Shown here: piece after piece, positions 23,125-38,552 of the stretch
Numbering within the stretch: the first letter of the stretch is position 1
How the letters are laid out: each line of letters starts with the position of its first letter
IMG/VR virus record: IMGVR_UViG_3300025815_000031
Span: 1 to 38,662 of that record
Origin: a virus
DNA: 38,662 nucleotides
Reading direction: 5' to 3' (one strand)
Position numbers and translations under genes: made by a program
The notes under the pieces: generated by a model
What the model was told of the DNA's origin: nothing
The model's input: the letters and a program-made list of their open reading frames with translations, nothing else
Databases searched by the model: none

Positions 23125-23238
23125 CTAGTTGAATTGAGTTTGGAATTTGTTGAGTGCATAGGTCAGCAGCATGCCTGCTGCTGCCCAAAGCAAATCTTTA
23201 ATTACTGGAACACAAAAAGAAATGAATGATTCAAACAT
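23125..23238 (-). CDS. 37-aa single-pass membrane peptide under pseudoknot control
   Basis: MFESFISFCVPVIKDLLWAA continues into AAGMLLTYAL, giving one membrane span and a short polar tail. It sits between the RNA pseudoknot at 23259-23286 and the Gp157-like gene, two bases after its stop. Its last codons (caaactcaattcaac) double as the leader motif of the next gene. Size and topology fit a small holin-like or regulator peptide, but no homology is claimed. Confidence 0.6.
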   Translation of the reverse strand: MFESFISFCVPVIKDLLWAAAGMLLTYALNKFQTQFN

Positions 23239-23258: not shown

Positions 23259-23286
23259 TAAGCAGTTTATCGTCATGCTTAGGACG
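23259..23286 (-). promoter_or_regulatory. Pseudoknot element, copy 1 of 5
   Basis: On the minus strand CGTC pairs with GACG around a loop CTAAGCAT. Loop bases TAAGCA pair perfectly with TGCTTA that follows ATAAACT: a six-base pseudoknot helix. It starts a few bases after the stop at 23292 and ends about 20 bases before the 37-aa gene at 23238, so it is a 5' leader. Confidence 0.8.
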
Positions 23287-23291
23287 TCTCG

Positions 23292-23558
23292 TCAGAGCTT
23301 GATGTCCTTGGCGGACAGTGCTAGCTTACCAGGCTCGTCAACCCTTGGTTCAACTATTTTGTAAAGAAGTGCTTCAAACAACTCACACTTCTTTTTCTTT
23401 GACATCTTGTCCCAACGCTTTAGATCTGGATCATTGTCATCCCAGTTCAATTTAATTTCAATGCCATCACCATCTTCTTTGTCGGTGATCTCAGCAATGA
23501 GTTTATTGCTGGCAAGCAGGAGATTGAGTTCAGAAAGTTCCATTGGTTTGGTTGTCAT
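23292..23558 (-). CDS. Unknown 88-aa charged protein
   Basis: Starts MTTKPMELSELNLLLASNKL, with an acidic centre (DKEDGDGIEIKLNWDDND) and Lys-rich helix (WDKMSKKKKCELFEALL). The start overlaps the upstream stop by four bases (ATGA). A pseudoknot leader of the next gene begins right after its stop. No known domain. Confidence 0.65.
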   Translation of the reverse strand: MTTKPMELSELNLLLASNKLIAEITDKEDGDGIEIKLNWDDNDPDLKRWDKMSKKKKCELFEALLYKIVEPRVDEPGKLALSAKDIKL

Positions 23559-24499
23559 TGCTTTTTAACAACAGATTGAAGTTGTGGAAGTGAGCGACCA
23601 GGGAATGGTACGTATCCCGCCTCCATCATATTGAAGAACAAATCCCATGCATGGTTTTGTGTGAAATGCTCATCTGGTTTGTAGTTACGCCAGTGGCTGA
23701 CAGGTGCTTGAGCACCATATGTTGTGTAGAGCACCTTGAATAAACCATCAGATAGATGGTCAGAAGGCGGCTGGTACCACCATGCAACACACTTACTTGG
23801 TGTGCCGTTCGGTGCTTGGTTACGTGCTTCCGTACGTTTGGATAGCATCTCGCGGTACTTATTGAACCAGGACAGATGGATGCACCATGGCTTGAAGCCT
23901 TCAATCTCCTGGGAAAAAGAAGAGATGTTATTAAGTTGTTGTTGATACGAACCACAAGAACACCATGGCTCACCAAAGATTGGCTTGACTTCTTCAACAG
24001 TATCTAAGCTGCTGTTGAAATCAATGGGCATATCTTGTGCACGCAAACCATCTGGTGCAATGAGATGACCAAGGTCTGCTTGATCTGATTGCAATAGAGC
24101 AGTTACTTTTTGTACATCGTTCAGATGAATGAAACGATCCGCCCATGCAGCTTGCAATCTTGCATTAGGTGTAAGGTGACCTAACGCATGGGAGTAGTAC
24201 CATCCTTTAAAAAGAACATAAGCATTGTTATGCCATACACTAGGACCGCGATAGTTAGGACCAAGGTAAGAAAAGAAATCTTTTAAGCGATGAGTATAGC
24301 TGGTATATGCAACCTTGATGGGTTCTCTGTTGTATGTTTGCTGGCTACCATCACGACGTAAGATCAGACAATCTTCGCCTTGAAGATAGATGTCAGCAAT
24401 GTCAGTGTCATCAAAATCATTGAAGGCACGACGTATGTTGGTACGTGTGTAAATAAATTTTTGCGCAGCATCAAGCTCGGTTACCTGTTGGTTTGACAT
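23555..24499 (-). CDS. SWIM zinc-finger-like protein
   Basis: The 314-residue protein contains C180-x-C182 (EPWCSCGSYQQQ) and C206-x-H208 (WCIHLSW), matching the CxC-xn-CxH layout of SWIM zinc fingers, which bind DNA or proteins. The rest is aromatic-rich (HNNAYVLFKGWYYSHALG, AWDLFFNMMEAGYVPF) and unfamiliar. The leader before its ATG is C/A-rich (CAACCCAACCCAAGTCC) with no Shine-Dalgarno sequence. It is coupled to the next gene by ATGA. Confidence 0.65.
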   Translation of the reverse strand: MSNQQVTELDAAQKFIYTRTNIRRAFNDFDDTDIADIYLQGEDCLILRRDGSQQTYNREPIKVAYTSYTHRLKDFFSYLGPNYRGPSVWHNNAYVLFKGWYYSHALGHLTPNARLQAAWADRFIHLNDVQKVTALLQSDQADLGHLIAPDGLRAQDMPIDFNSSLDTVEEVKPIFGEPWCSCGSYQQQLNNISSFSQEIEGFKPWCIHLSWFNKYREMLSKRTEARNQAPNGTPSKCVAWWYQPPSDHLSDGLFKVLYTTYGAQAPVSHWRNYKPDEHFTQNHAWDLFFNMMEAGYVPFPGRSLPQLQSVVKKQ

Positions 24500-24529
24500 G
24501 AGTTGGACTTGGGTTGGGTTGAAGTTGGA

Positions 24530-24721
24530 TCAGTTGTCCAGCCAGTAGTCCTGCTGGAGCCGGTCTTCCTTAGCGCGTTGGTAGGCGCCTTTTGCCATTC
24601 TATACGATCCGTAGATCACTGCAGCCCAAGCGGCAGGAGAAGGCAACAGAAGAGCAAGGCCAGCAGTAACCAGAGCTGTGGTACCACCAACCTTGACAGC
24701 AGCTTTTTGTTCGGGTTTCAT
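24530..24721 (-). CDS. Small membrane protein, 63 aa
   Basis: MKPEQKAAVKVGGTTALVTA leads into a hydrophobic segment (ALVTAGLALLLPSPAAWAAV) and a basic tail (MAKGAYQRAKEDRLQQD). AAGGA at about ten bases before the ATG is a normal ribosome site, unlike the C/A-rich leaders nearby. Function unknown. Confidence 0.6.
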   Translation of the reverse strand: MKPEQKAAVKVGGTTALVTAGLALLLPSPAAWAAVIYGSYRMAKGAYQRAKEDRLQQDYWLDN

Positions 24722-24803
24722 GTGAGTAATCCTTAACAGAAACAAAAGATTTAGTGTGAGTTTAATGCATTGGTTAGAATGTTTTGTAACAACTTAATAC
24801 TTT

Positions 24804-25073
24804 ATGGAAGAGATAAAGTACGTGCCTCTAACCAAATTCCAAATTGAACCAACGCTTGATGATAAGTTTTGGCTTGAAAAGATTAAACGTTCCATTGAAG
24901 ATTGTAATTCAGTTGGTGCCTTAAAAGAAATGGCGACCTTGCTTGCGCAGATCGCCACTCAACGTCAAGGTGTAATTCGTGGGTTAGTACAAGACATGTT
25001 TATCTTCAACAATATTTCTATTGATGGAGATGACTTGGCTAACCCAGAAGTTAAAACTAAATCAGAGGAATGA
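24804..25073 (+). CDS. Lone plus-strand 89-aa protein
   Basis: One of only two small plus-strand genes in the minus-strand right half. It encodes a soluble helical protein (FQIEPTLDDKFWLEKIKRS, ALKEMATLLAQIATQRQG) and is preceded by 82 AT-rich bases that could hold its promoter. Its 3' end overlaps the convergent gene at 25062 by 12 bases. No family recognised. Confidence 0.65.
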   Translation: MEEIKYVPLTKFQIEPTLDDKFWLEKIKRSIEDCNSVGALKEMATLLAQIATQRQGVIRGLVQDMFIFNNISIDGDDLANPEVKTKSEE

Positions 25074-26078
25074 ATCTTCCCCTGTCATTTCATCACGTGC
25101 TGGAAGCACCTTCACATCAACTGCGTCGTTGCTACGTGAGACAGGAAGAATGTTCAATCCTTCTTTGATGCCATAAGAACCATTGAGTTTCTTGGCATCT
25201 TGCTTTGCATGTTGATTGATGTAATCATCAAACAACTCTTGGAACTTCCAAGTAGATGCACGATCCTCGTCTGGAATTGAAAGGTTATTCAACGATTCAA
25301 TTGCAGCTTCTTGCGTTGAGTAATCTGGAATCGAAAAGGATTCAATTGCACAGATCTCAACGTTATTTGCACCACGCATTTCATTTGCAAGCACAGGTGT
25401 AAACACTGTGGTTGCATAGAACTTTTCGTTGAATGCAAGTGGGATCTCAGAGTCCAGTGCTTTGCTTAAGCACTTAGACATCTCTTTCTCATAAAGCTTT
25501 ACTTTATCTGATACATCAGTACCATTCAATCCTTTAAGTGTAAGCACAATAGGATTTTTGTGAGCACGCTTATTATCCTTGGTCAGGATAAAGATCAAAT
25601 ACTTTGTACGTACACTGTACTTACGCTTGTACATCTCGCCTTTGCTATTGGCAAGATCAGAAGCAACCTTATCATTATCAAAGATTGCTTTTACTTCTTC
25701 ATCTTCAAACGTACCAATTACTTGGCGCATACCAGTAGTTTCTTCCACCATCAAAGGTGAACGCAACAATACTTGAATGCGAGGCTCAGTAAAATTCAAT
25801 CCCTCTTCAATAGAAGTATTGGGAGCCATACCAAAGGTTTGCTTGTAATTCCAGATGACAGAACCTGGGGTAAAGTCATCTTCCGTTGCTGTCCATCCAC
25901 AGACATCAAGGTCTGATTTACGTACAAACCAACCACGTACTTTTGATTTATTCAGTGGTTGAATTGTTACCAAGTTCTGGTAACCAGAAATAAACTCTTT
26001 GCTTGCAAAAAGTTTAAACGAATCAAGGCTACGAGTAGCCAGTGCATCTTTCTTGGTTTTGGTCGGAGAAGAAGTCAT
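25062..26078 (-). CDS. Unknown protein of the replication cluster
   Basis: A 338-residue soluble protein. Features include SKVRGWFVRKSDLDVCGW, FTEPRIQVLLRSPLMVEE and a C-terminal KLNGSYGIKEGLNILPV. It loosely recalls cyanobacterial/plasmid DUF5895-type proteins, but this is memory and not confirmed. It stands directly after the SSB gene and carries the same pseudoknot leader type, suggesting shared control and a DNA-transaction role. Confidence 0.65.
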   Translation of the reverse strand: MTSSPTKTKKDALATRSLDSFKLFASKEFISGYQNLVTIQPLNKSKVRGWFVRKSDLDVCGWTATEDDFTPGSVIWNYKQTFGMAPNTSIEEGLNFTEPRIQVLLRSPLMVEETTGMRQVIGTFEDEEVKAIFDNDKVASDLANSKGEMYKRKYSVRTKYLIFILTKDNKRAHKNPIVLTLKGLNGTDVSDKVKLYEKEMSKCLSKALDSEIPLAFNEKFYATTVFTPVLANEMRGANNVEICAIESFSIPDYSTQEAAIESLNNLSIPDEDRASTWKFQELFDDYINQHAKQDAKKLNGSYGIKEGLNILPVSRSNDAVDVKVLPARDEMTGEDSFL

Positions 26079-26099
26079 GGTTTGTTCTTAGTGAAAAGT

Positions 26100-26126
26100 G
26101 GATGAGTTTAACGTCATCCCAGGACG
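26100..26126 (-). promoter_or_regulatory. Pseudoknot element, copy 2 of 5
   Basis: CGTC pairs with GACG around CTGGGAT. Four loop bases GGAT pair with ATCC after TTAAACTC. It lies 22 bases before the ATG at 26078, between the SSB gene and the unknown gene, with the same order as the other copies. Confidence 0.75.
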
Positions 26127-26147
26127 GGTACTTATTGTACCAAGAGA

Positions 26148-26969
26148 TCAGAAGGGTTCGTCCGATGCAAAAACAGGAGCTGCGGTGTATTGACCTGGAA
26201 GTTCAGGCAAGCCACCACCAGATGCTTCGTTCCATGCATCCTGGGAATCCTCAACCGTTTTGCCTCCCCATAGGCTAGCTACATTCCCTTCGGCAGCCAC
26301 AGTTGTTTGTGAAACCACAGGTTTATCTTTGGACTCATCACGAGTCCGTACAATATTTACCTTATTGATTTGAATCTTGGTTGCTGTACGGCGCTCATTG
26401 GTTTGTTTATCATTCCATGCATCTGTTACAAGGCGACCACGAAGAGTCATCTCTGTTCCTTTCTTAGTCATGTTGCAGATAAGTTCTGCAAGATTCAAAC
26501 GATCATTAGCATTATTGATTGCATAGAAATTAAATAGATCACACTGGTTTCTACCAGTGGAAACACTTAATGTTTGCGAGCAAATCATTGTGCCATCAGC
26601 AGTTGTCTTGAAAGCACGTGGATCTTCCTTGTCAATATCTTTGATACAACGTCCTGCAAGAATTACATCATTGAAGATCGGGAATGATTCAGTAACTTCT
26701 GCAAGAGAACCTGCATGTAAGGAGTGGGTCTTGGTCTGAACATCAAATCGTAAGGTGGCACCATGGATATAGATGAGGGAGTTCTGCTTGAGTCGCAGGA
26801 ATCTTTCTGCTGCTTTGCCATAGACGTGATACTTGATTCGAGTTTCAGATTTGTTTTGACTTACCCTAGGAAGAATTACTTCCGCACAGTAAGAAGAAGA
26901 AGTTGCAGATGTGTATACCTCACGTGGTGTTTCGGCGAGGGATGCACAGACAAAAGCGCAGTTCATCAT
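26148..26969 (-). CDS. ssb: Single-stranded DNA-binding protein, apparently two OB folds
   Basis: The 273-residue protein has two SSB-like beta-barrel segments. Residues 1-90 include EVILPRVSQ, TRIKYHVYGKAAERF and IYIHGATLRF. Residues about 100-210 include DVILAGRCIKDI, FNFYAI, GTEMTLRGRLVTDAW and ATKIQINKVNIV, the classic SSB strand order. A low-complexity Gly/Ala linker leads to the C-terminal tip FASDEPF, an acidic end with final Phe like the protein-docking tip of bacterial SSBs. It should coat fork DNA and recruit partners. It follows the polymerase gene and has its own pseudoknot leader. Confidence 0.78.
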   Translation of the reverse strand: MMNCAFVCASLAETPREVYTSATSSSYCAEVILPRVSQNKSETRIKYHVYGKAAERFLRLKQNSLIYIHGATLRFDVQTKTHSLHAGSLAEVTESFPIFNDVILAGRCIKDIDKEDPRAFKTTADGTMICSQTLSVSTGRNQCDLFNFYAINNANDRLNLAELICNMTKKGTEMTLRGRLVTDAWNDKQTNERRTATKIQINKVNIVRTRDESKDKPVVSQTTVAAEGNVASLWGGKTVEDSQDAWNEASGGGLPELPGQYTAAPVFASDEPF

Positions 26970-26989
26970 TGCGTAAAAAAGCAGTGTTA

Positions 26990-27016
26990 AAGCAGTTTAA
27001 CGTCATACTTAGGACG
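26990..27016 (-). promoter_or_regulatory. Pseudoknot element, copy 3 of 5
   Basis: CGTC pairs with GACG around CTAAGTAT. Loop AAGTA pairs with TGCTT after TTAAAC, five pairs including one T-G. Placed five bases past the polymerase stop and about 20 bases before the SSB start at 26969. Confidence 0.75.
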
Positions 27017-27021
27017 GGCAA

Positions 27022-28845
27022 TCAATGTGTTTCAGACCAGTTGGTCCCAACACGAGAATCGCCTTCAATGTCGCACTGGAATCCAAAGAACTCCTGTGCC
27101 TGTGGGAAAGCAAGCATTGCTTGTTCCCTGATTTGTTCTGTGTACCTGGGTGCACATACGAGTTGAATCTCGTCATGCACCATTAAAACTTGTTCCCATC
27201 CATTGCCGTGCTCAAGACCAAGCACTTGTTTAATATTGTTATGTACATTAATAACAACTTGTTTCATTAAGATTGCACCTGCTGATTGCAGGAGCACATT
27301 CAATCCCTTGAAAGCTGAGCGACAATAAAGAACGCGACGATCAAGACCAATAAGATAACCCCGGTGTGTAATGTTGTCATCAATTTTTTCTTTCAATTGT
27401 TTAAGGGCTGGTACACCTTGCATGAATGAATTGATTGCAGTTCTTCCTGCTTTACGCAATACGTCCTCATCCTTTTCATTTGGTTCAATAATTGTTCCTG
27501 CTTTTAAATTACCTGCCCCATATAGGCAGGCATAAAGCAAACGCTTACTAATATCCCTGGTGGCCACACCAAATCTTTCTTGATTATAAACATGAATATC
27601 AATATCAGGATTAGTTACAACACGCGCATATTCACCATCATCATATAAGGCAAGATAACCTGCAAGGCAACGCAACTCCAATGCCTTGGCATCAATACCA
27701 ATCATGTTCCATCCTTGTGGCGCATGAAACAATGAACGACATTCCTTACCATAAGCTGAATAACCCGCTGGCACCTGGCCCATGTTTGGGTACCGATGAG
27801 CGCAGCGACCAGTGACGCAGCCGTTAGTAACAACGTCACCGTGCATGCGACCGCTGTCATGATTAACCAGCTTGAGCCAAGCGTTGTTCCCATCAGCGAT
27901 TTGACCAAGGCGTTTCTTGACGAGCATGTACTCTGCCAGAGGTTTTGCTTCTGGGTAGGGGAGCTTTTCTAAAACTTCATCATCAAGGATTGGATTTCCT
28001 TTTTCAGTTGTTTTCTCTGGTTGCCATCCGTACTTTTGCTTAAGTCGATCAACAATCTGTTGACGAGATCCAGGATTGAATTGTTCAGTTCGGATCTTTT
28101 CAAAAGGAACTCCTTTTACATAACCACGATTTTTGTTGTTTACCTTGGGGGTAAACCAAGTGTGGTGTTGGATAGGTGGAAATACTTCCTTTAATTCTGC
28201 TTCAAGTTTGCTTTGTTTTGTTCTGAGATCATCCACCAAATCAAGACATGCATCCACATCAAATGGAACACCTGCTCTAATTTGTTTATTAATTGCGAGC
28301 GCAAAATCATGTTCAACTTTAAGCGCAGATGGTGGATAGGATTGCTTGGCGATATGATCCCAAAGTTTTGTAGTAACAGCAACGTCTTGTTTGCAGTATG
28401 CAAGCATTTCGCTGGAGTATTCAGAGAAATCTTTGAATTCGATTTTATGATCGGCCAATCGCCATCCCCATGTCTTAAGCGATGCGGATCCACGTAAGTT
28501 CGGTGGAACTTCCGGATATTGTTCAAGGTCAAGCTCGTAGAGTTTTTCCTTGGGCCAGATGAGTCGTGTGCAAATGAGTGTGTCAATGATCTCTGAAGTA
28601 GTGGTGAATGAGTAAAGTTTGTTTAGTACTGGGATGTCATAGAAGATGATGTTGTGACCAATCAAAACATCAGCGGTTGCCAGATGAGCAATAGCATCAG
28701 CAATGCAATCAGGCCCATAAGAAAAAGTTTGGTTGGATCCAATGTCATGGATGACAATGCAATGTACTTTAGTTACTTTGTCATAAAGTCCATCGCTTTC
28801 CAAATCAAAGACAAGATACTTTTCATTTGCGGAAGCGGGACTCAT
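27022..28845 (-). CDS. T7-type family A DNA polymerase
   Basis: A 607-residue replicative polymerase. A 3'-5' exonuclease starts with FDLESDGL (D14, E16) and ends with YCKQDV. Polymerase motif A is DAKALELRC near 381, motif B RDISKRLLYACLYGAG near 430, and motif C VHDEIQ near 555, all close to T7 gp5. The Tyr in LLYACLYG corresponds to T7 Tyr526. MSPASANEKYLV is chosen as the start because it follows TCTCAATTCAAG, the leader seen before other genes here, and limits overlap with the upstream gene to 23 bases; in-frame Mets 13 and 24 codons upstream exist. Confidence 0.95.
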   Translation of the reverse strand: MSPASANEKYLVFDLESDGLYDKVTKVHCIVIHDIGSNQTFSYGPDCIADAIAHLATADVLIGHNIIFYDIPVLNKLYSFTTTSEIIDTLICTRLIWPKEKLYELDLEQYPEVPPNLRGSASLKTWGWRLADHKIEFKDFSEYSSEMLAYCKQDVAVTTKLWDHIAKQSYPPSALKVEHDFALAINKQIRAGVPFDVDACLDLVDDLRTKQSKLEAELKEVFPPIQHHTWFTPKVNNKNRGYVKGVPFEKIRTEQFNPGSRQQIVDRLKQKYGWQPEKTTEKGNPILDDEVLEKLPYPEAKPLAEYMLVKKRLGQIADGNNAWLKLVNHDSGRMHGDVVTNGCVTGRCAHRYPNMGQVPAGYSAYGKECRSLFHAPQGWNMIGIDAKALELRCLAGYLALYDDGEYARVVTNPDIDIHVYNQERFGVATRDISKRLLYACLYGAGNLKAGTIIEPNEKDEDVLRKAGRTAINSFMQGVPALKQLKEKIDDNITHRGYLIGLDRRVLYCRSAFKGLNVLLQSAGAILMKQVVINVHNNIKQVLGLEHGNGWEQVLMVHDEIQLVCAPRYTEQIREQAMLAFPQAQEFFGFQCDIEGDSRVGTNWSETH

Positions 28846-29056
28846 CTTGAATTGAGAGTTCTTTACTTGCAAGTTCACTGTCATTGTTGTTAATCCAGGA
28901 CAAGATTTGTTGCGCACCTGCGCGATAAGGATGCGAGAAAATCCTGTTCAATGCCACGTCAGATTCTAGTGGAATTAAATCAAATCGATTCGTTTCACTA
29001 TTGGCAGTAATGGCATGTGGTGCATCATGCAGCCAACAAGCAATGACGTAACTCAT
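28823..29056 (-). CDS. Unknown 77-aa protein before DNA polymerase
   Basis: Starts MSYVIACWLHDAPHAITAN; soluble, with a charged C-terminus (SELASKELSIQDESRFRK). Its last 23 bases overlap the polymerase start. The 5' side carries an 11-bp hairpin at 29059-29100. No known domain, but coupling suggests co-expression with the polymerase. Confidence 0.65.
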   Translation of the reverse strand: MSYVIACWLHDAPHAITANSETNRFDLIPLESDVALNRIFSHPYRAGAQQILSWINNNDSELASKELSIQDESRFRK

Positions 29057-29058
29057 AA

Positions 29059-29100
29059 ATCAGATGGAAGACGGTTGCATACTACCGAATTCCATCTGAT
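29059..29100 (-). promoter_or_regulatory. Long hairpin leader before polymerase operon
   Basis: ATCAGATGGAA pairs perfectly with TTCCATCTGAT (11 bp). Inside, GGT pairs with ACC. There is no T-tract, so a terminator is unlikely. It fills almost the whole gap between the stop at 29119 and the ATG at 29056. Confidence 0.65.
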
Positions 29101-29118
29101 GTGCAAGTAAATCAGGCG

Positions 29119-29889
29119 TTATTTCATTTTGTTCTTGTTGTAACCAACAAACTTGCCAGCCTTCTTGCGTGCACTGATCGCTTTGCTTGCGTCAGATCCA
29201 GCCCTCTGGGAGCCATGGACAAGCAATGCAAAGGGCTTATCACCCAGGCAATGACTGTCATCATGGTCAATCTCGAGGCCAAGCTCAGCTGCTTGTTCTT
29301 CTGTGTAGACAACGTATGAGATACGTTGGAATACATCCTTATGGTTAGGGATGAGGTAATCAAGTGTCCCACCATGAGATGCAGTGAGCTTCATATTGTC
29401 AGGGATCTGATCCTGCAAGTTGAGCCACATACCAAGTGACTTGGTGTAAGCATAGAACGTTTGGTATGGGCGCATCATGGCAACCATTGCCCAAGCACGC
29501 ATGTAGTTCTCTGTCCAGAAATCACCTGACTCATGGATGCGTACCAATTTCTTGGGCGCACACATGGTCAGTGATTCGTCGATGAGATCACGCAATGCAT
29601 AGGCTTGTGCATCACCAGATTGATTGACAATACGTTCACGGATCAGATTCCAGTTATGCCAACGCAGGTTGCGTACGTTGGGATACTTCTCTGATAGTGC
29701 AGCAAAGCAACGAAACTCATAAGCTGCTTCAACACCTGTGTACTGGGGCAGGTCACGAATCTTACCAGTATCTGGATCAGCAAATGTTTTGCAGACACCA
29801 GCGTGAGGACAGGTGTAACCAGCAGGCAGAGAAAAGATAAGGCGATCGGTCAGCTTGCTGTTGCCGTTGGAGAACTTGAGGAATTGCAT
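29119..29889 (-). CDS. Gene-product-88-like phage protein
   Basis: The 256-residue protein starts with FSNGNSKLTDRLIFSLPAG then TCPHAGVCKTFADPDTGK, a cysteine cluster in a segment I associate with phage gp88-like proteins; the assignment is tentative. It continues with FRCFAALSEKYPNVRNLRW, LVRIHESGDFW and FYAYTKSLGMW. The lysine-rich C-terminus (ISARKKAGKFVGYNKNK) could bind nucleic acid. The leader CCAACTCAATTTCAACC replaces a Shine-Dalgarno site, with a pseudoknot further upstream. Confidence 0.65.
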   Translation of the reverse strand: MQFLKFSNGNSKLTDRLIFSLPAGYTCPHAGVCKTFADPDTGKIRDLPQYTGVEAAYEFRCFAALSEKYPNVRNLRWHNWNLIRERIVNQSGDAQAYALRDLIDESLTMCAPKKLVRIHESGDFWTENYMRAWAMVAMMRPYQTFYAYTKSLGMWLNLQDQIPDNMKLTASHGGTLDYLIPNHKDVFQRISYVVYTEEQAAELGLEIDHDDSHCLGDKPFALLVHGSQRAGSDASKAISARKKAGKFVGYNKNKMK

Positions 29890-29911
29890 GGTTGAAATTG
29901 AGTTGGAATAC

Positions 29912-29938
29912 GGATGAGTTTAACGTCATCCCAGGACG
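29912..29938 (-). promoter_or_regulatory. Pseudoknot element, copy 4 of 5
   Basis: Same sequence core as the copy at 26100: CGTC/GACG around CTGGGAT, with loop GGAT pairing ATCC after TTAAACTC. It ends 23 bases before the ATG at 29889. Confidence 0.75.
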
Positions 29939-30316
29939 TAACAAGTAGAATGTAACAGGACCGAAGAAGAGCTACGTCAGGTCCAGAGGGAACCGAAGTT
30001 TTTGTAGCTTCCTTCGGTTAGTAAACGAATGGCTCTGCGACGTGATTACCGTGGAGCCACACCCTCTATCCATAAGATTTACTTATGTAGAGGTTTGTGT
30101 TACAGCACGAACAGCTTCATATACATCAATGATCATATACTTTCAGTATCAATAGATACCAAATCAAATGACATTGACATACAGGGGCTGCTCTTACAAC
30201 AAAGATCAACAAGTACAACAAGATAAAGCCTGGTGGAACCTAGCCCACCGTCCATGGCTCTGCTTGAAGTACCGTAACGCTTGCTACTTTCCCTTTGTAA
30301 CCGGAGGTCAGATCCA
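29939..30316 (+). other. Gene-poor 378-base stretch
   Basis: No convincing protein gene on either strand; the longest plus-strand reading frame (30029-30226) has poor composition and no ribosome site. Visible structure: a CCGAAG/CTTCGG inverted repeat at about 29992-30016, TGGCTC/GAGCCA at about 30031-30060, GTATC/GATAC at about 30146, and a TTGACA at 30174 without a clear -10. A plus-strand terminator follows at 30444, so a short plus-strand transcript covering this block and the small gene at 30317 is possible. Confidence 0.45.
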
Positions 30317-30433
30317 GTGAACCAGGCATTCATTATTTACTTGGTGAACAAAAAGAAAAAGATGACACGCTCAGATGTTGAGTCCAAGCGTGCCATGAAA
30401 GAACTGAAGAAAGAATCAGTATCTACTTTTTAA
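30317..30433 (+). CDS. 38-aa basic peptide with good ribosome site
   Basis: A GTG start lies eight bases after GGAGG. The product is MNQAFIIYLVNKKKKMTRSD, then a charged Lys/Glu helix. The stop is one base from the ThyX stop on the other strand, and a strong plus-strand terminator follows 10 bases later. One of only two plus-strand genes here; function unknown. Confidence 0.5.
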   Translation: MNQAFIIYLVNKKKKMTRSDVESKRAMKELKKESVSTF

Positions 30434-30434
30434 T

Positions 30435-31100
30435 TCATCCATTAAGCCCTTGATTAACAAGGGCTTTTTCATTGAATGCTGCTTCACTAATCAAAGGGAA
30501 TTCTTTAGTGAATACTTTCTTTGCTTCACGTGCAAGCTGAGCATGCTCCATCTGCGTACCATTGGAGCAACGCAGATCAATGTAATGCATCCACGATCTG
30601 AGTGTTCCATTCATAAACAAACGTGTTTGAGTTGATAAAGGTAAGATTGAACGTGCACATTCCTTTGCAACACCATTGCTAATCATCTCGTTATAGAGAT
30701 GTTCGCTTTCTTCGTACAGCTGACTGATCCTCCTGTAGTAGGAGCCAACAAGTTCAACTGGTAAATCATCAATACTATTTTGACGATTCTTTTGATCCTG
30801 TCTACGTAGGTGTGGGATTACTGCAGAGCCAAGCTGATTGGTATCAGCATAGCGCTGACTGAATTCTTGGAATGAGAAGGATCGATGGCGTAAAATCTGA
30901 GCTGAGATAGCACGTGTTGTGTTGATTTCAACACATAAGTTAGCCATTTCAAATGGTGACCAGTGTTTGTGGTTAATCAAGTAACGAATCAACCTTGGAG
31001 CTGTGTCCATGTTGCTTTCATTCTTTGGTGCAGAGACACGTGCCATCTTAACGATCATCTCTTCTGCGTTTGGCGTTGACCAAACAAGGTTTACATTCAT
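30435..31100 (-). CDS. thyX: Flavin-dependent thymidylate synthase ThyX
   Basis: The 221-residue protein carries the ThyX signature RHRSFSFQEFSQRY at 71-84 (RHRxxSxQxxSxR), which binds FAD and dUMP. Length and the NGTLRSWMHYIDLRC segment near 165 fit the family. It makes dTMP from dUMP with methylene-tetrahydrofolate and NADPH, supplying thymidine to the polymerase upstream of it on the map. It is the last gene of a run starting at 32043. Confidence 0.96.
   Translation of the reverse strand: MNVNLVWSTPNAEEMIVKMARVSAPKNESNMDTAPRLIRYLINHKHWSPFEMANLCVEINTTRAISAQILRHRSFSFQEFSQRYADTNQLGSAVIPHLRRQDQKNRQNSIDDLPVELVGSYYRRISQLYEESEHLYNEMISNGVAKECARSILPLSTQTRLFMNGTLRSWMHYIDLRCSNGTQMEHAQLAREAKKVFTKEFPLISEAAFNEKALVNQGLNG
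30444..30469 (+). terminator. Plus-strand terminator inside the thyX 3' end
   Basis: AAGCCCTTG pairs with CAAGGGCTT around ATTAA (9 bp), followed by five T residues. It belongs to plus-strand transcripts from the 29939-30433 stretch, although it lies within the last codons of thyX on the minus strand. Confidence 0.85.
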
Positions 31101-31106
31101 GTTCTT

Positions 31107-31409
31107 TTATTCAACAGAGCAACCATAGCCAGTTGCAGTCAACTGTTCAATAGCATCTGCAGGACAGATACGCATTTGTGCATGTTGCATTGGTGTTTTG
31201 AGGTGATCCCATTGAATGATTAAGTATTTTTGCTTACGTCCATTCTTGTTTGGTTTGTTAACCATACCAATTACTGTGCCGTATCTTTGGAAGATATTCT
31301 TCTTAATCCAATCCTTTGTTTCTTTCTTTACACCAAACATTGCGCGTTGCTTTGGGCGTTCAGCAACACGATCACCAATCTTATAGATGTACTGGGAGTT
31401 GCTTGTCAT
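31107..31409 (-). CDS. Unknown 100-aa basic protein before thyX
   Basis: Contains YKIGDRVAERPKQRAMFG and QRYGTVIGMVNKPNKNG followed by KYLIIQWDH, an arrangement like a small beta-barrel (KOW/SH3-like). Its start overlaps the upstream regulator gene by four bases, and the stop is six bases from the thyX start. Nucleic-acid binding is inferred from charge. Confidence 0.65.
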   Translation of the reverse strand: MTSNSQYIYKIGDRVAERPKQRAMFGVKKETKDWIKKNIFQRYGTVIGMVNKPNKNGRKQKYLIIQWDHLKTPMQHAQMRICPADAIEQLTATGYGCSVE

Positions 31410-31723
31410 TGGATGATACTGCGACGTTGTTTGTTAATGATCTTGCGAATGGAACCAGAGTTGCGTTTGTACTTCAGAGCAATTTGACCACTGCTCAAAC
31501 CAAGTGCATGCAACTCTCGTATCCCTTTGATCTCTTCTTCTGTGAAGGGTTGACCAGGAGTTTTGGGTGGTAGTTCATGAACTTCAAGTGTACGAAAACG
31601 TGCATCGCAATCAAAACATTTGCAATACCTTTTGATAAGGTAAGGATTGATGTGATCAGTTGAAACAACCTTTGTGTTTTGACCATCACATTTGATGCAT
31701 GGTCGTTTAAGTTTGTAAGGCAT
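31406..31723 (-). CDS. NrdR-like zinc ribbon plus HTH regulator
   Basis: The 105-residue protein begins with a zinc ribbon: C9-C12 (PCIKCDG) and C36-C39 (CKCFDCDARFRTLE), whose RFRTLE end resembles the RFTTYE of NrdR. Residues about 60-105 are a helix-turn-helix (IRELHALGLSSGQIALKY, SGSIRKIINKQRR). The layout suggests a DNA-binding regulator, perhaps of nucleotide metabolism given thyX downstream. It lacks the NrdR ATP-cone. Confidence 0.7.
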   Translation of the reverse strand: MPYKLKRPCIKCDGQNTKVVSTDHINPYLIKRYCKCFDCDARFRTLEVHELPPKTPGQPFTEEEIKGIRELHALGLSSGQIALKYKRNSGSIRKIINKQRRSIIQ

Positions 31724-32043
31724 TAGAGAAGGCGGTTTGCAATCAGTACAAGAACTTGTTGTTGACCAAGGATCTGGAACGAATCTTCCAGAAGTTCCTT
31801 CCTCTTATCAGGAAGTTCATAGCAATCAAACATGATGTCTTGAAGAAGATCAAAGTCATCTGCTTTGCCAGTAATCTTTTCAATTACCAGGCCAGGCATT
31901 GCATCGATGATGCCTTCAATTAATACTTCTTTGATTGCAATCCATGCATCAGCTGGTGCTTCATCAAGGATTGTTTCAATGACTTGTTCATTTGCTAAGT
32001 TGTTTATATCTTGTTGGATAGTGGATTGATCTGATTCAGACAT
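31723..32043 (-). CDS. Unknown acidic 106-aa protein behind a terminator
   Basis: MSESDQSTIQQDINNLANEQ leads an acidic helical protein (FDLLQDIMFDCYELPDKRKE). The ATG at 32043 comes nine bases after a strong terminator hairpin, so no normal promoter or free ribosome site fits between. Expression of this gene and of the operon down to thyX probably depends on read-through or RNA processing. Stop abuts the next start. Confidence 0.65.
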   Translation of the reverse strand: MSESDQSTIQQDINNLANEQVIETILDEAPADAWIAIKEVLIEGIIDAMPGLVIEKITGKADDFDLLQDIMFDCYELPDKRKELLEDSFQILGQQQVLVLIANRLL

Positions 32044-32069
32044 GAAAGAAACCCCCGCAAAAGCGGGGG
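32044..32069 (-). terminator. Terminator touching the next start codon
   Basis: CCCCCGC pairs with GCGGGGG around TTTT, followed by TTTCTTTC and immediately the ATG at 32043. It lies 22 bases past the stop at 32092. Strong stem, imperfect T-tract: it may be a leaky terminator or attenuator. Confidence 0.85.
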
Positions 32070-32091
32070 ATAACAAATGTGCAGGAGAAGT

Positions 32092-32454
32092 TTAAGCGCT
32101 TTGTGCTTGGGTGTCGATGATATTGTCACCAAGACCAGCATCACGTAACTTTTCCAGCATAGATACCATGATGGTTGCTTGCGCCTGAGTGCGATCTAGG
32201 AACTCGCTAGCACGCTCTGGAGAGATCGTATGGACCGAACCATTCGGTTCTACGTAGCGCCAGCTTCCATCGGGTTGTGGGTCCCCCTGGAGGGCAAGAC
32301 GCTCGGAGTTATGGACATACCTGAACTCAACGTTGTGGTAGTCCTTAAGACCATCTTGTCCTGTCCATGTGGCACCAAGGTTGTACCGTGCATCCTGATC
32401 GGCAAATGCATGGAACTCAGGGACGAGATGCTTGAAAGCAGCAAAGATTTGCAT
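32092..32454 (-). CDS. Unknown 120-aa protein
   Basis: Begins MQIFAAFKHLVPEFHAFADQ and contains YHNVEFRYVHNSERLAL and QPDGSWRYVEPNGSVHTISP, a beta-rich centre, then a helix with a Gln/Ala end. The start codon is inside a 31-bp exact repeat also found at the tRNA end, and a hairpin element precedes it. No family recognised. Confidence 0.65.
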   Translation of the reverse strand: MQIFAAFKHLVPEFHAFADQDARYNLGATWTGQDGLKDYHNVEFRYVHNSERLALQGDPQPDGSWRYVEPNGSVHTISPERASEFLDRTQAQATIMVSMLEKLRDAGLGDNIIDTQAQSA

Positions 32455-32479
32455 GGTTCTAAATTGAGTTTGGGTTGGT
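32449..32479 (-). repeat. 31-bp direct repeat, copy 1 (leader plus start codon)
   Basis: Identical over 31 bases to 32871-32901. On the minus strand it reads ACCAACCCAAACTCAAT, then TTAGAACCATGCAA. Here its ATG is the start of the gene at 32454. Confidence 0.95.
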
Positions 32480-32482
32480 GGC

Positions 32483-32510
32483 CTGGGACTTACATCTTAA
32501 GAATGCCCAG
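32483..32510 (-). promoter_or_regulatory. Hairpin element, copy 1 of 6
   Basis: Outer stem CTGGG/CCCAG; 5' loop CAT; inner TCTTAAGA; 3' loop TGTAAGT. It starts five bases after the stop of the gene at 32515 and precedes the leader of the gene at 32454. Confidence 0.75.
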
Positions 32511-32514
32511 CTAA

Positions 32515-32811
32515 TCAGTAATAATATCTTTTATTCTCAAGACCAGGTTTTGGCACTTCAATAATTTGACCGTCATCAGCAATCATTGGAATAACATCAT
32601 TCATATACTCTTGTAAAAATTGTTGATAAGTGTCTGGCTCAGCAAACACTTCAGCTGCACCTGGATAGCCAAGATCACTATCTTCTAATGCACCATATAC
32701 AGATCGAATAACTTGGTCGTTTTTTAACAAACCAAGCACTTCTTCATCAGACAAAGCTTTACCTTTATTTAAAGCTTGCTTTGTGCGTTGAAAGTAAAGA
32801 CGATTTTGCAT
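32515..32811 (-). CDS. Unknown acidic 98-aa protein
   Basis: Starts MQNRLYFQRTKQALNKG (a Met two codons upstream is possible). Contains YGALEDSDLGYPGAAEVF and YMNDVIPMIADDG; the DxDLGY segment is also seen in the protein at 35966. Followed closely by a hairpin element. Function unknown. Confidence 0.6.
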   Translation of the reverse strand: MQNRLYFQRTKQALNKGKALSDEEVLGLLKNDQVIRSVYGALEDSDLGYPGAAEVFAEPDTYQQFLQEYMNDVIPMIADDGQIIEVPKPGLENKRYYY

Positions 32812-32870
32812 ATACAAAAACCATTTTTTACTAGTGTAAACGAAGTAAATAGTTACTACCCGAGGTGAGA

Positions 32871-32901
32871 TTGCATGGTTCTAAATTGAGTTTGGGTTGG
32901 T
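32871..32901 (-). repeat. 31-bp direct repeat, copy 2 (at the tRNA 3' end)
   Basis: Exact second copy of 32449-32479. Its first bases ACCA are the discriminator base and CCA end of the tRNA. Its ATG at 32876 opens only MQSHLG before a stop, so this start is vestigial. Confidence 0.95.
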
Positions 32902-32974
32902 AGCCGACCCCGGATTCGAACCGGGACTTGGCGGAGCTTAAATCCGCTGCCTCTGCCAATTGGGCTAGTCGGCC
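32901..32974 (-). tRNA. tRNA with UAA anticodon (Leu by codon), encoded CCA
   Basis: A full cloverleaf is visible: acceptor GGCCGAC/GTCGGCT (first pair G-U), D-stem GCC/GGC with a GG-containing loop, anticodon stem GCGGA/TCCGC with loop TTTAAGC (anticodon TAA, codon UUA), and T-arm CCCGG-TTCGAAT-CCGGG. The discriminator is A and the CCA end is encoded (32898-32900). The variable loop is only five bases (CAAGT), unlike the long arm of normal bacterial tRNA-Leu, so its aminoacylation identity is open. The first ten bases overlap the upstream gene. Confidence 0.93.
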
Positions 32975-33183
32975 TCACTTGGACTTACCTCTACATCAAT
33001 TGATGTGGAGTGCCAAGTATGATCTTGAGGTAACGGTTCAGTGCCGTACTCCCATGTGTCGTAGTCATCCTCATTGCGAGGATCTTCTTCGATCAAGATG
33101 TACTGAGGTGAGTTGCCATGGATGTACTCACCAATGTTGGCCATGGCCATGGCAAGTAGTTGGTCATCGGTGTAGTCAGTCAT
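32965..33183 (-). CDS. Acidic 72-aa protein ending inside the tRNA
   Basis: MTDYTDDQLLAMAMANIGEY leads an acidic protein (IEEDPRNEDDYDTWEYG). The TAG stop is formed by tRNA bases 8-10. Its 3' end also contains a hairpin element (32978-33017). The start lies only a few bases from the preceding terminator T-tract. Confidence 0.65.
   Translation of the reverse strand: MTDYTDDQLLAMAMANIGEYIHGNSPQYILIEEDPRNEDDYDTWEYGTEPLPQDHTWHSTSIDVEVSPSEAD
32978..33017 (-). promoter_or_regulatory. Hairpin element, copy 2 of 6, before the tRNA
   Basis: Outer stem CTTGG/CCAAG, 5' loop CA, inner CTC/GAG and CATCAATTGATG, 3' loop GTAAGT. It lies three bases upstream of the tRNA 5' end, inside coding sequence of the gene at 32965, and could define the tRNA 5' processing boundary. 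Confidence 0.65.
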
Positions 33184-33186
33184 AGG

Positions 33187-33221
33187 TAAAAACCAGCCCT
33201 AGTATCGAGGCTAAGGCTGGT
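33187..33221 (-). terminator. Terminator after PcfJ-like gene, abutting next gene
   Basis: ACCAGCCTTAG pairs with CTAGGGCTGGT (11 bp, one T-G) around CCTCGATA, followed by TTTTTA. It lies 13 bases past the stop at 33235, and the ATG at 33183 follows three bases after the T-tract. The same unusual geometry occurs at 32044-32069. Confidence 0.85.
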
Positions 33222-33234
33222 AAACCGTGTGGGT

Positions 33235-34968
33235 TCAGGCAGATTGTAGCTGCTTCTCTCGTTGTTGCAAGACCTCACGGAAAGCTTCTGTGTAAGCTTC
33301 ACGTTGCTCTTCCGTGAGACGCTGGTTAGCAACACCAGCAATCTGCTTGACGGACATCATACCCATATCAACCACCAGTTGGATGGTAAAGGTAGGCTTA
33401 CCATCAATCATGCATAGCACAATGAAGTGCTTACGCTTCTTGATGTCATCGGCATAGTGCGATGCAGAACCGACGCAGTTGCGTACGGCTTGGCCCCACA
33501 TAGCCAACTGATGTGTGTCAACAGGCTGGAAGAATGACCAGGTTTTACCATTGCGTGTAACTCTGATAGGTTCAGGAAATAAATCTTGAAGCAAGGATTC
33601 GTTGGGATTTTGGATCTTCCAGGACTCAGCTTGCACGTAGTCATGGAACTCACTAAGGCGCCAACGCTTTGGTGGTGCAAGTTCTCCACGATGGTTAAGG
33701 ATACGGATTGCCATGGAGAATGTGTCATTCAGCTCATGGAATCCATACCGTGCATAACCAACATCAGAGTCAATCCATGATGTTTTGGAATCCTGTTCTT
33801 CAACATACTTATACATGATCTTGAAGAGTGATGCAACAGGCATGTGTTCACGCAACCAATCAATCAGTATGGTTTTGTCAGCATCGATAGTGCGCACACG
33901 AACTTGATGAAGCTTAATAGAAAGAAGTTCCTTGTAATGAGTCTGGTAATGATCAAGCGGGCAATCAGGCCAGATGTTGTTAATCCAATCAATGGCATTA
34001 ATAACCTGGAGGAATGTAGACCAGGCTTGCCTAATTGGTTTCTGGCGATTGTTATCTGGATCGTTATAAGTTCTTGTGCATTCGTCAAGATGTATTTGTA
34101 AAAGTTTCTTAATAGCAGGCTTGGAAATGATGCGTTCAACACTAACCAAGGTGCAATAAGTGCCTGATGTATACACCCTCTCCATCTGATTGAACTTTTT
34201 AGCAGCATTAATTAAGTTATCAATAGTCAGACCATCGTTCTTATCTAGATACTTAGACATACCGCCAGGTATCTCTGCTGCATCAAAGATGTTCTCGCAA
34301 CGGATGCGATCAAATAATCCACGGGAATCTTCCCATGTGGGAATGTTTTGACGTAGGCTTTTCTCAAATGCTTCAACAGCATTGTCTCTGATCTGATAAC
34401 CTTTCTGGCAATAAAGATTTCCTGCTCGCCATTGGTAATGTTGATAGCCATGCTCAGCTTTACCAATGATGTTTTCCTTGGTGATATTCATTGAGTAAGT
34501 AAAGGTCTGGACACCACGACCACCTTCGTGCTCGATGCACTTGTCCTTGCTGTTCCAAATCCAGTTAGGTGCCACCTTTTTAGCAGCTGCTGTGTTCTTG
34601 AAGGCATAGGCATGGCCATAAACATACTCATCTTCTTGCTGCTTGGGAGGTAGCCACGCTGCGTACCACACCTGTTCGTAGTGATACAAGATGGCAATGA
34701 CTTTGAGGCGAGCTTGCGGAGTTGCTACGTCCACAGGCGTGGTAAATACTTTGTAGCGATCAGGTGCCTTCTGCTGGTTGATGTGATCAATCGCAGCCTG
34801 CTGATCTGACTCACGCACCACATTGTGTGGTATGAGGTGAGGGATGTTACCCAGTGGATACTTAGCTTTCTTGGTAGTCTTAGGCTTGGCCTGTTGAGCC
34901 AGCGCCTTCAGTGCTGGATCGTAGGCAAGGAGTTCGGTTTGGAGGTTGGAAGGTAATTGGAACTGCAT
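33235..34968 (-). CDS. PcfJ-like protein
   Basis: A 577-residue protein. Its C-terminal third matches the PcfJ-like pattern: PVDTHQLAMWGQAVRNCVGS, HFIVLCMIDGKPTFTIQL and VKQIAGVANQRLTEEQ. PcfJ-like proteins are widespread in phages and conjugative elements; their activity is not established. The N-terminal part is Lys/Ala-rich with no known domain. Leader: TACCCACTCAATTCA directly before ATG, with a pseudoknot 22 bases upstream. Confidence 0.78.
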   Translation of the reverse strand: MQFQLPSNLQTELLAYDPALKALAQQAKPKTTKKAKYPLGNIPHLIPHNVVRESDQQAAIDHINQQKAPDRYKVFTTPVDVATPQARLKVIAILYHYEQVWYAAWLPPKQQEDEYVYGHAYAFKNTAAAKKVAPNWIWNSKDKCIEHEGGRGVQTFTYSMNITKENIIGKAEHGYQHYQWRAGNLYCQKGYQIRDNAVEAFEKSLRQNIPTWEDSRGLFDRIRCENIFDAAEIPGGMSKYLDKNDGLTIDNLINAAKKFNQMERVYTSGTYCTLVSVERIISKPAIKKLLQIHLDECTRTYNDPDNNRQKPIRQAWSTFLQVINAIDWINNIWPDCPLDHYQTHYKELLSIKLHQVRVRTIDADKTILIDWLREHMPVASLFKIMYKYVEEQDSKTSWIDSDVGYARYGFHELNDTFSMAIRILNHRGELAPPKRWRLSEFHDYVQAESWKIQNPNESLLQDLFPEPIRVTRNGKTWSFFQPVDTHQLAMWGQAVRNCVGSASHYADDIKKRKHFIVLCMIDGKPTFTIQLVVDMGMMSVKQIAGVANQRLTEEQREAYTEAFREVLQQREKQLQSA

Positions 34969-34990
34969 TGAATTGAGTGGGTAAGTGGAA

Positions 34991-35018
34991 TGGACAGTTT
35001 AACGTCATGTCCAGGACG
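34991..35018 (-). promoter_or_regulatory. Pseudoknot element, copy 5 of 5
   Basis: CGTC pairs with GACG around CTGGACAT. Loop TGGACA pairs perfectly with TGTCCA after TTAAAC: six pairs unlike in sequence to those of the 23259 copy, a clear compensatory change. Sits six bases past the stop at 35024. Confidence 0.82.
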
Positions 35019-38515: not shown

Positions 38516-38552
38516 CTGGGACTTACACCACACATGTTATGTGGATGCCCAG
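38516..38552 (-). promoter_or_regulatory. Hairpin element, copy 6 of 6
   Basis: CTGGG/CCCAG outer stem, 5' loop CAT, inner CCACA/TGTGG, 3' loop TGTAAGT. Starts three bases after the stop of the gene cut by the right edge. Confidence 0.8.

Follow-up and report, generated by a model that had tools for sequence, protein, structure and literature searches.

What are the five short, similar elements that stand upstream of genes on the minus strand of the viral record IMGVR_UViG_3300025815_000031, and what could they do there? The window (the whole stretch analysed, 38,662 nucleotides (nt)) is a 38.7-kb DNA-phage contig from a freshwater cyanobacterial virus, and an earlier note, made from its letters alone, had described the elements as a family of H-type pseudoknots in 5′ leaders. 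All five were recovered, the pattern CGTCCT..GACG occurring five times in the window against 0.16 expected by chance, with the 5′ ends of the first helix (S1) at 23286, 26126, 27016, 29938 and 35018. We propose, with a rough probability of 0.68, that the element is a coremin-like exonuclease-resistant RNA (xrRNA) which halts RNase J at the boundaries between cistrons, keeping the RNA downstream from decay. The five copies are as follows, with S2 denoting the helix between loop and tail.

34991..35018, minus strand: copy 5, S1 CGTC/GACG, loop CUGGACAU, S2 UGGACA/UGUCCA; stop codon of a 50-amino-acid open reading frame (ORF) 5 nt upstream, PcfJ-like gene 22 nt downstream.
29912..29938, minus strand: copy 4, 7-nt loop CUGGGAU, S2 GGAU/AUCC; GP88 gene 22 nt downstream.
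26989..27016, minus strand: copy 3, loop CUAAGUAU, S2 AAGUA/UGCUU including one G-U; DNA polymerase A stop codon 5 nt upstream, SSB gene 19 nt downstream.
26100..26126, minus strand: copy 2, 7-nt loop CUGGGAU, S2 GGAU/AUCC; SSB stop codon 21 nt upstream, DUF5895 gene 21 nt downstream.
23259..23286, minus strand: copy 1, loop CUAAGCAU, S2 UAAGCA/UGCUUA; stop codon of an 88-amino-acid ORF 5 nt upstream, 37-amino-acid membrane ORF 20 nt downstream.

The positions first reported for these copies are their 3′ ends, four of them exact and the fifth shifted from 26990 to 26989, and the loop/tail helices pair as described; the two GGG copies, whose loop has 7 nt, can pair as GGAT/ATCC or, with one G bulged out, as GG-A. 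The earlier statement that each copy begins after a stop codon is exact, at 5 nt, for the copies starting at 23286, 27016 and 35018 and holds loosely for 26126 (21 nt), but fails for 29938, which lies ~195 nt past the nearest plausible gene. The distance to the ATG, put at about 20–25 bases, is better given as 47–50 nt from S1 and about 19–22 nt from the end of the 3′ strand of S2 (S2′). Upstream of copy 4, a long intergenic stretch at positions 29945–30090 of the minus strand contains several inverted repeats, has no clear gene and may itself be a structured RNA.

In order, the element consists of a 4-bp S1, a C, the 5′ strand of S2, U or A, the second strand of S1, NUAAAC and S2′; the 5′ strand of S2 is UNNNNA, shorter in the GGG subtype, and S2 spans about 4–6 bp. 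With loop and tail left unconstrained, this pattern retrieved 160 context-distinct copies from IMG/VR and bacterial genomes; the share of cells in which their four variable loop bases are paired to the tail is 94.5%, compared with a mean of 77% and a maximum of 81% in 2,000 reshufflings. Across 55 distinct elements 92.9% of cells pair (77.3% shuffled), the covariation score is 0.490 (0.184 shuffled, with 0 of 500 shuffles equally high), double-sided changes occur at nine of ten pairs, and sliding the pairing by 1–3 columns abolishes the signal; loop and tail change together in these elements and not independently. S2 was never a selection criterion in the pattern hits. S1 is paired in 55 of 55 rows, most frequently as CGTC/GACG, a figure that is biased because the rows without CGTC were picked for S1 pairing. 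The fair test of S1 is given by leaders of orthologues retrieved by protein alone, where C-G becomes U-A on both sides in two PcfJ leaders and two SSB leaders. The CGTC/GACG stem, taken by the note as shared, is constant within the window, but S1 covaries in relatives, where GGAC/GTCC, GGTC/GACC, AGTC/GACT, TGTC/GACA, CGAC/GTCG and AGAC/GTCT are found. The invariant unpaired bases are C5 and T18–C22, and the invariant UAAAC is followed by U in more than 90% of the 55 rows. A selected RNA pseudoknot is thus strongly supported, and because both helices covary, a promoter or other DNA-level repeat was ruled out.

The element is abundant in related phages and extends well beyond them. The exact pattern CGTCCTNNNNATGACGNTAAAC matches at least 119 IMG/VR stretches (reversed control, 3), and a 30-base copy retrieved 148 phage records at 80% or more of its length (reversed control, 0 at that coverage). 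SSB orthologues were collected with an alignment of 10 SSBs, which yielded 80 loci against 2 for a single-protein search, and the element is present in 67 of 67 distinct leaders, 66 with an exact NTAAAC and one with TAAAAC; 10 of 13 PcfJ orthologue leaders carry it as well. Carrier phages include those of Staphylococcus aureus (85 Staphylococcus records), Lactobacillus, Streptococcus, Mycobacterium, Arthrobacter, Paracoccus, Moorella, Nostoc, Microcystis and Synechococcus, and carrier bacterial assemblies those of Enterococcus, Butyrivibrio, Fictibacillus, Hornefia and Saccharibacteria. A search of 5,426 complete genomes of E. coli, a species without RNase J, gave no copy.

The copy in the SSB leader of every orthologue, and the multiple copies per genome that could make a regulon, might point to a binding site for a phage or host protein such as SSB. 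The parallel is T4 gene 32, whose mRNA leader also folds into an H-type pseudoknot with a short first loop and nucleates gp32 binding, although this pseudoknot differs in sequence and serves a single gene rather than many genes and tRNAs. We regard a protein site as quite improbable, since the same core recurs in unrelated phages of many phyla and beside tRNAs with no common protein evident, and the SSB of the S-EIV1 lineage is not needed elsewhere. The earlier idea of a T4-gp32-like SSB operator likewise finds no support in copies that precede five different genes in the window and scaffold and tRNA genes elsewhere.

For elements preceded by an ORF of 60 codons or more, the gap between stop codon and S1 is 5 nt in 62 cases, 6 nt in 19, 7–8 nt in 16 and less than 5 nt in three. 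The same lower limit is seen outside the cyanophage lineage, where the gap is 5–8 nt in 21 of 35 cases and the start codon that follows lies at a variable distance, and for this reason we conclude that position is governed mainly by the end of the upstream cistron. Downstream lie replication genes, scaffold or major capsid genes (S. aureus B166, Lactobacillus phiEF-1.1, D6E, Enterococcus gp20-like) and tRNA genes (Mycobacterium Labelle, Arthrobacter Molivia), and at locus L053 a copy stands between two tRNA-Ser genes. In Staphylococcus phage B166 (L188, 1501–1526) and other Phietavirus, the element before the scaffold/capsid genes overlaps a BPROM-predicted promoter annotation, which probably reflects the conserved RNA element. 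In a Butyrivibrio locus (L139, after 2281) the element is followed directly by a structured stretch, GTGAAAGTCCG..CTGATGAG..GAAAC, that is group II intron- or hammerhead-like.

A pseudoknot 5–8 nt after a codon is the classical recoding geometry, and most copies begin 5 nt after a stop. A stimulator of stop-codon readthrough or frameshifting is nonetheless scarcely credible and was rejected because of the reading frames and tRNA contexts. Each of the three stop codons is used, copies lie beside tRNA genes, and the spacings avoid no frame, with 7 and 10 nt among them where an in-frame TGA lies inside the element. The cyanophage copies, packed between a stop codon (5 nt) and an ATG (~20 nt past the end of S2′), would also suit a translational insulator or enhancer, an intercistronic fold that halts post-termination ribosomes or keeps the downstream start region open, and coremin stalls scanning eukaryotic ribosomes in vitro (PMC10520033). 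Such a role is unlikely given the copies before and between tRNA genes and a start-codon distance that is unconstrained outside cyanophages; some translation-related role of the element is possible.

The reading that we favour, an exonuclease block, rests first on likeness to coremin (xrRNA-C). This RNA of beet necrotic yellow vein virus and others stalls Xrn1 one nucleotide before its hairpin and obeys the loop rule YGAD or YGNNAD, with some longer loops tolerated, and its CGCAAU and CGAAAU loops are Xrn1-resistant (PMC10520033, PMC5869530). Coremin, found in benyviruses, cucumoviruses and other RNA viruses, shares with the phage element a 4-bp hairpin (hp1), often with the same CGUC/GACG, a C...A-D loop, a UUAAAC spacer followed by U, and intergenic and 3′ untranslated sites, sometimes in tandem. 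The phage core is in register with coremin GUCCGAAGACGUUAAACUAC, with C first in the loop, A next to last, U or A last, and the UUAAAC-U spacer; the agreement in hp1 is unbiased in the SSB and PcfJ orthologues. Unlike coremin, the phage element has four extra loop bases that form a true pseudoknot helix with the tail, and its carriers are DNA phages whose bacterial hosts rely on RNase J rather than Xrn1. The xrRNAs of flaviviruses and tombusviruses are also pseudoknotted and stall 5′–3′ exonucleases, as predicted for the phage element, but have bigger, ring-like folds and other sequences. Our search, of open-access papers with few subscription titles and no preprints, turned up no account of coremin or any other xrRNA in phages.

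A strict scan for hexaloop coremin returned 30 IMG/VR stretches, 18 of which continue with UA as in coremin; these 18, among them L182 and L055, fully match the coremin loop consensus, and CGCAAU and CGAAAU loops both occur among the hexaloop matches. In L182, which is related to the window phage, the gap between polA and SSB holds a CGAAAU hexaloop in the place where 67 other distinct leaders have the pseudoknot, and in L055 the hexaloop and pseudoknot forms stand in tandem before tRNA-like sequence. Because of this exchange we read the two forms as doing the same job. Tetraloop coremin, CGTCYGADGACGTTAAAC, gave six matches in three contexts, none with the UA tail, which are probably chance or coding sequence and were set aside.

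The several invariant unpaired bases, in a compact pseudoknot like preQ1-I or SAM-II, could also belong to a metabolite riboswitch or a small self-cleaving ribozyme. We consider this very improbable, as the bases in question are those of coremin, which has neither function, copies occur in tRNA contexts, and position tracks the upstream stop rather than the downstream start. At the Rfam gathering threshold the sole match in the window is a tRNA, and a lax threshold gave nothing relevant, consistent with the earlier view that the element is not a preQ1, SAM or glutamine riboswitch. The metabolite sensor that had also been suggested is not supported; unrelated genes, tRNA contexts and phages of many phyla make a single shared protein or ligand unlikely.

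Bacteria lack Xrn1, and their 5′–3′ exonuclease is RNase J. The close resemblance to a plant-virus exonuclease blocker, together with hosts that bear RNase J, suggests that the element probably shields downstream messages. A flaviviral xrRNA stops purified RNase J1 in vitro, so such blocks need not be enzyme-specific (PMC5760640); in Bacillota, Synechocystis and Caulobacter, RNase J trails the last ribosome (PMC10234816), and strong 5′-exonuclease activity has been reported for the Synechocystis enzyme (PMC7283877). In the mechanism that we propose, RNase J would enter at a 5′ end or an endonuclease cut, trail the last ribosome through the upstream cistron, and stall at the entry face of the element just past the upstream stop codon, the site where its chase would end. 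The downstream cistron or tRNA would then survive, its new 5′ end lying at S1 or immediately before it, and the loop/tail helix would probably take the bracing role that a second, separate hairpin (hp2) has in the plant-virus version. With a stop codon in the A site, 5 nt may be about the closest that a fold can come before it gets in the way of termination. Both the stalling of RNase J and the resulting downstream protection are what we infer from the observed sequence, structure, covariation, spread, position and host distribution. Among the functions guessed earlier, a processing signal comes nearest; the likeness of the conserved core to coremin and the tight spacing after upstream stop codons had not been noticed.

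Several findings weigh against this interpretation. At loop position 2 the phage element carries U or C where coremin has G, and it lacks a separate hp2 after the spacer. The window copies keep the first C and the final A-U of the loop but have U at position 2, outside the YGAD/YGNNAD consensus, and their tail pairs with the loop instead of forming hp2; because these two features fail the published rules, the window copies are coremin-like and not members of coremin. RNase J scored above the cut-off in 13 of 14 motif-bearing bacterial assemblies and in 9 of 14 controls, a co-occurrence that is at most suggestive because the enzyme is common in bacteria, and L141, a Bacteroidetes assembly with two copies, has no RNase J above the cut-off. 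A Vibrio phage look-alike with a TCTC/GAGA stem recurs in 27 near-identical records, antisense to annotated genes; RNase J is not expected in Vibrio, and we judge these matches to be chance or an unclear look-alike. A plasmid search returned two S. aureus records with a Staphylococcus-type match, probably phage-derived, and two Acinetobacter plasmids (NZ_CP094551.1, 2515–2542; NZ_CP139209.1, 2942–2967) with intergenic matches of 88–89% to the 30-base element. Acinetobacter is not expected to carry RNase J, and its plasmid matches could be chance or a counter-example to the RNase J reading.

Beyond this virus, we lean towards the view that a coremin-class xrRNA serves at cistron borders to stop the host's RNase J in DNA phages of many bacterial phyla (Cyanobacteria, Firmicutes, Actinobacteria, Alphaproteobacteria and probably Saccharibacteria). 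Resistance to exonucleases is familiar as a device of the RNA viruses of eukaryotes. The group that reported the RNase J1 block stated that xrRNAs never meet this enzyme in nature (PMC5760640); if our view is correct, the phage element would be the first natural class of xrRNA to act in bacteria, with a core common to the plant RNA virus RNA that stops Xrn1, an enzyme unrelated to RNase J. RNase J would become a phage-countered enzyme, opposed by a 28-nt coremin-like knot at cistron ends, which would explain how phages tune operon expression (capsid, tRNA) through RNA stability. It would also offer a tiny, portable element for stabilising mRNAs, and would be a clear example of DNA phages and plant RNA viruses either converging on one RNA fold or sharing it.

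The nearest isolate to the window is Synechococcus phage S-EIV1 (77% DNA identity across one gene), and the minus strand of the window encodes DNA polymerase A, SSB, Thy1, GP88, PcfJ-like and DUF5895 proteins. The genes 3′ of the five copies are listed below.

33235..34968, minus strand: PcfJ-like gene, 577 amino acids, 3′ of copy 5 (Pfam PF14284, E 3e-7).
29119..29889, minus strand: GP88 gene, 256 amino acids, 3′ of copy 4 (Pfam PF17338, E 2e-40).
26148..26969, minus strand: SSB gene, 273 amino acids, 3′ of copy 3 (Pfam PF00436, E 1e-11).
25062..26078, minus strand: DUF5895 gene, 338 amino acids, 3′ of copy 2 (Pfam PF19247, E 8e-13).
23125..23238, minus strand: ORF of 37 amino acids, 3′ of copy 1, with no Pfam match; its start, MFES..VLPVVKDL, is kept in relatives.

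A second family of leader elements, for which Rfam gave no match, lies on the minus strand of the window near 38542, 37440, 36382, 35640 and 32506, and also in L187 (S-EIV1), L202, L016, L182 and L164. Its members have an outer stem, for example CUGGG/CCCAG, around C-A/G, a variable inner hairpin and a conserved UGUAAGU. The fetched loci hold 94 structural matches, a few probably due to chance, mostly before ATGs and some just before tRNAs, and the outer stem covaries (CTAGG/CCTAG, ATGGG/CCCAT, AAAGG/CCTTT, CTTGG/CCAAG).

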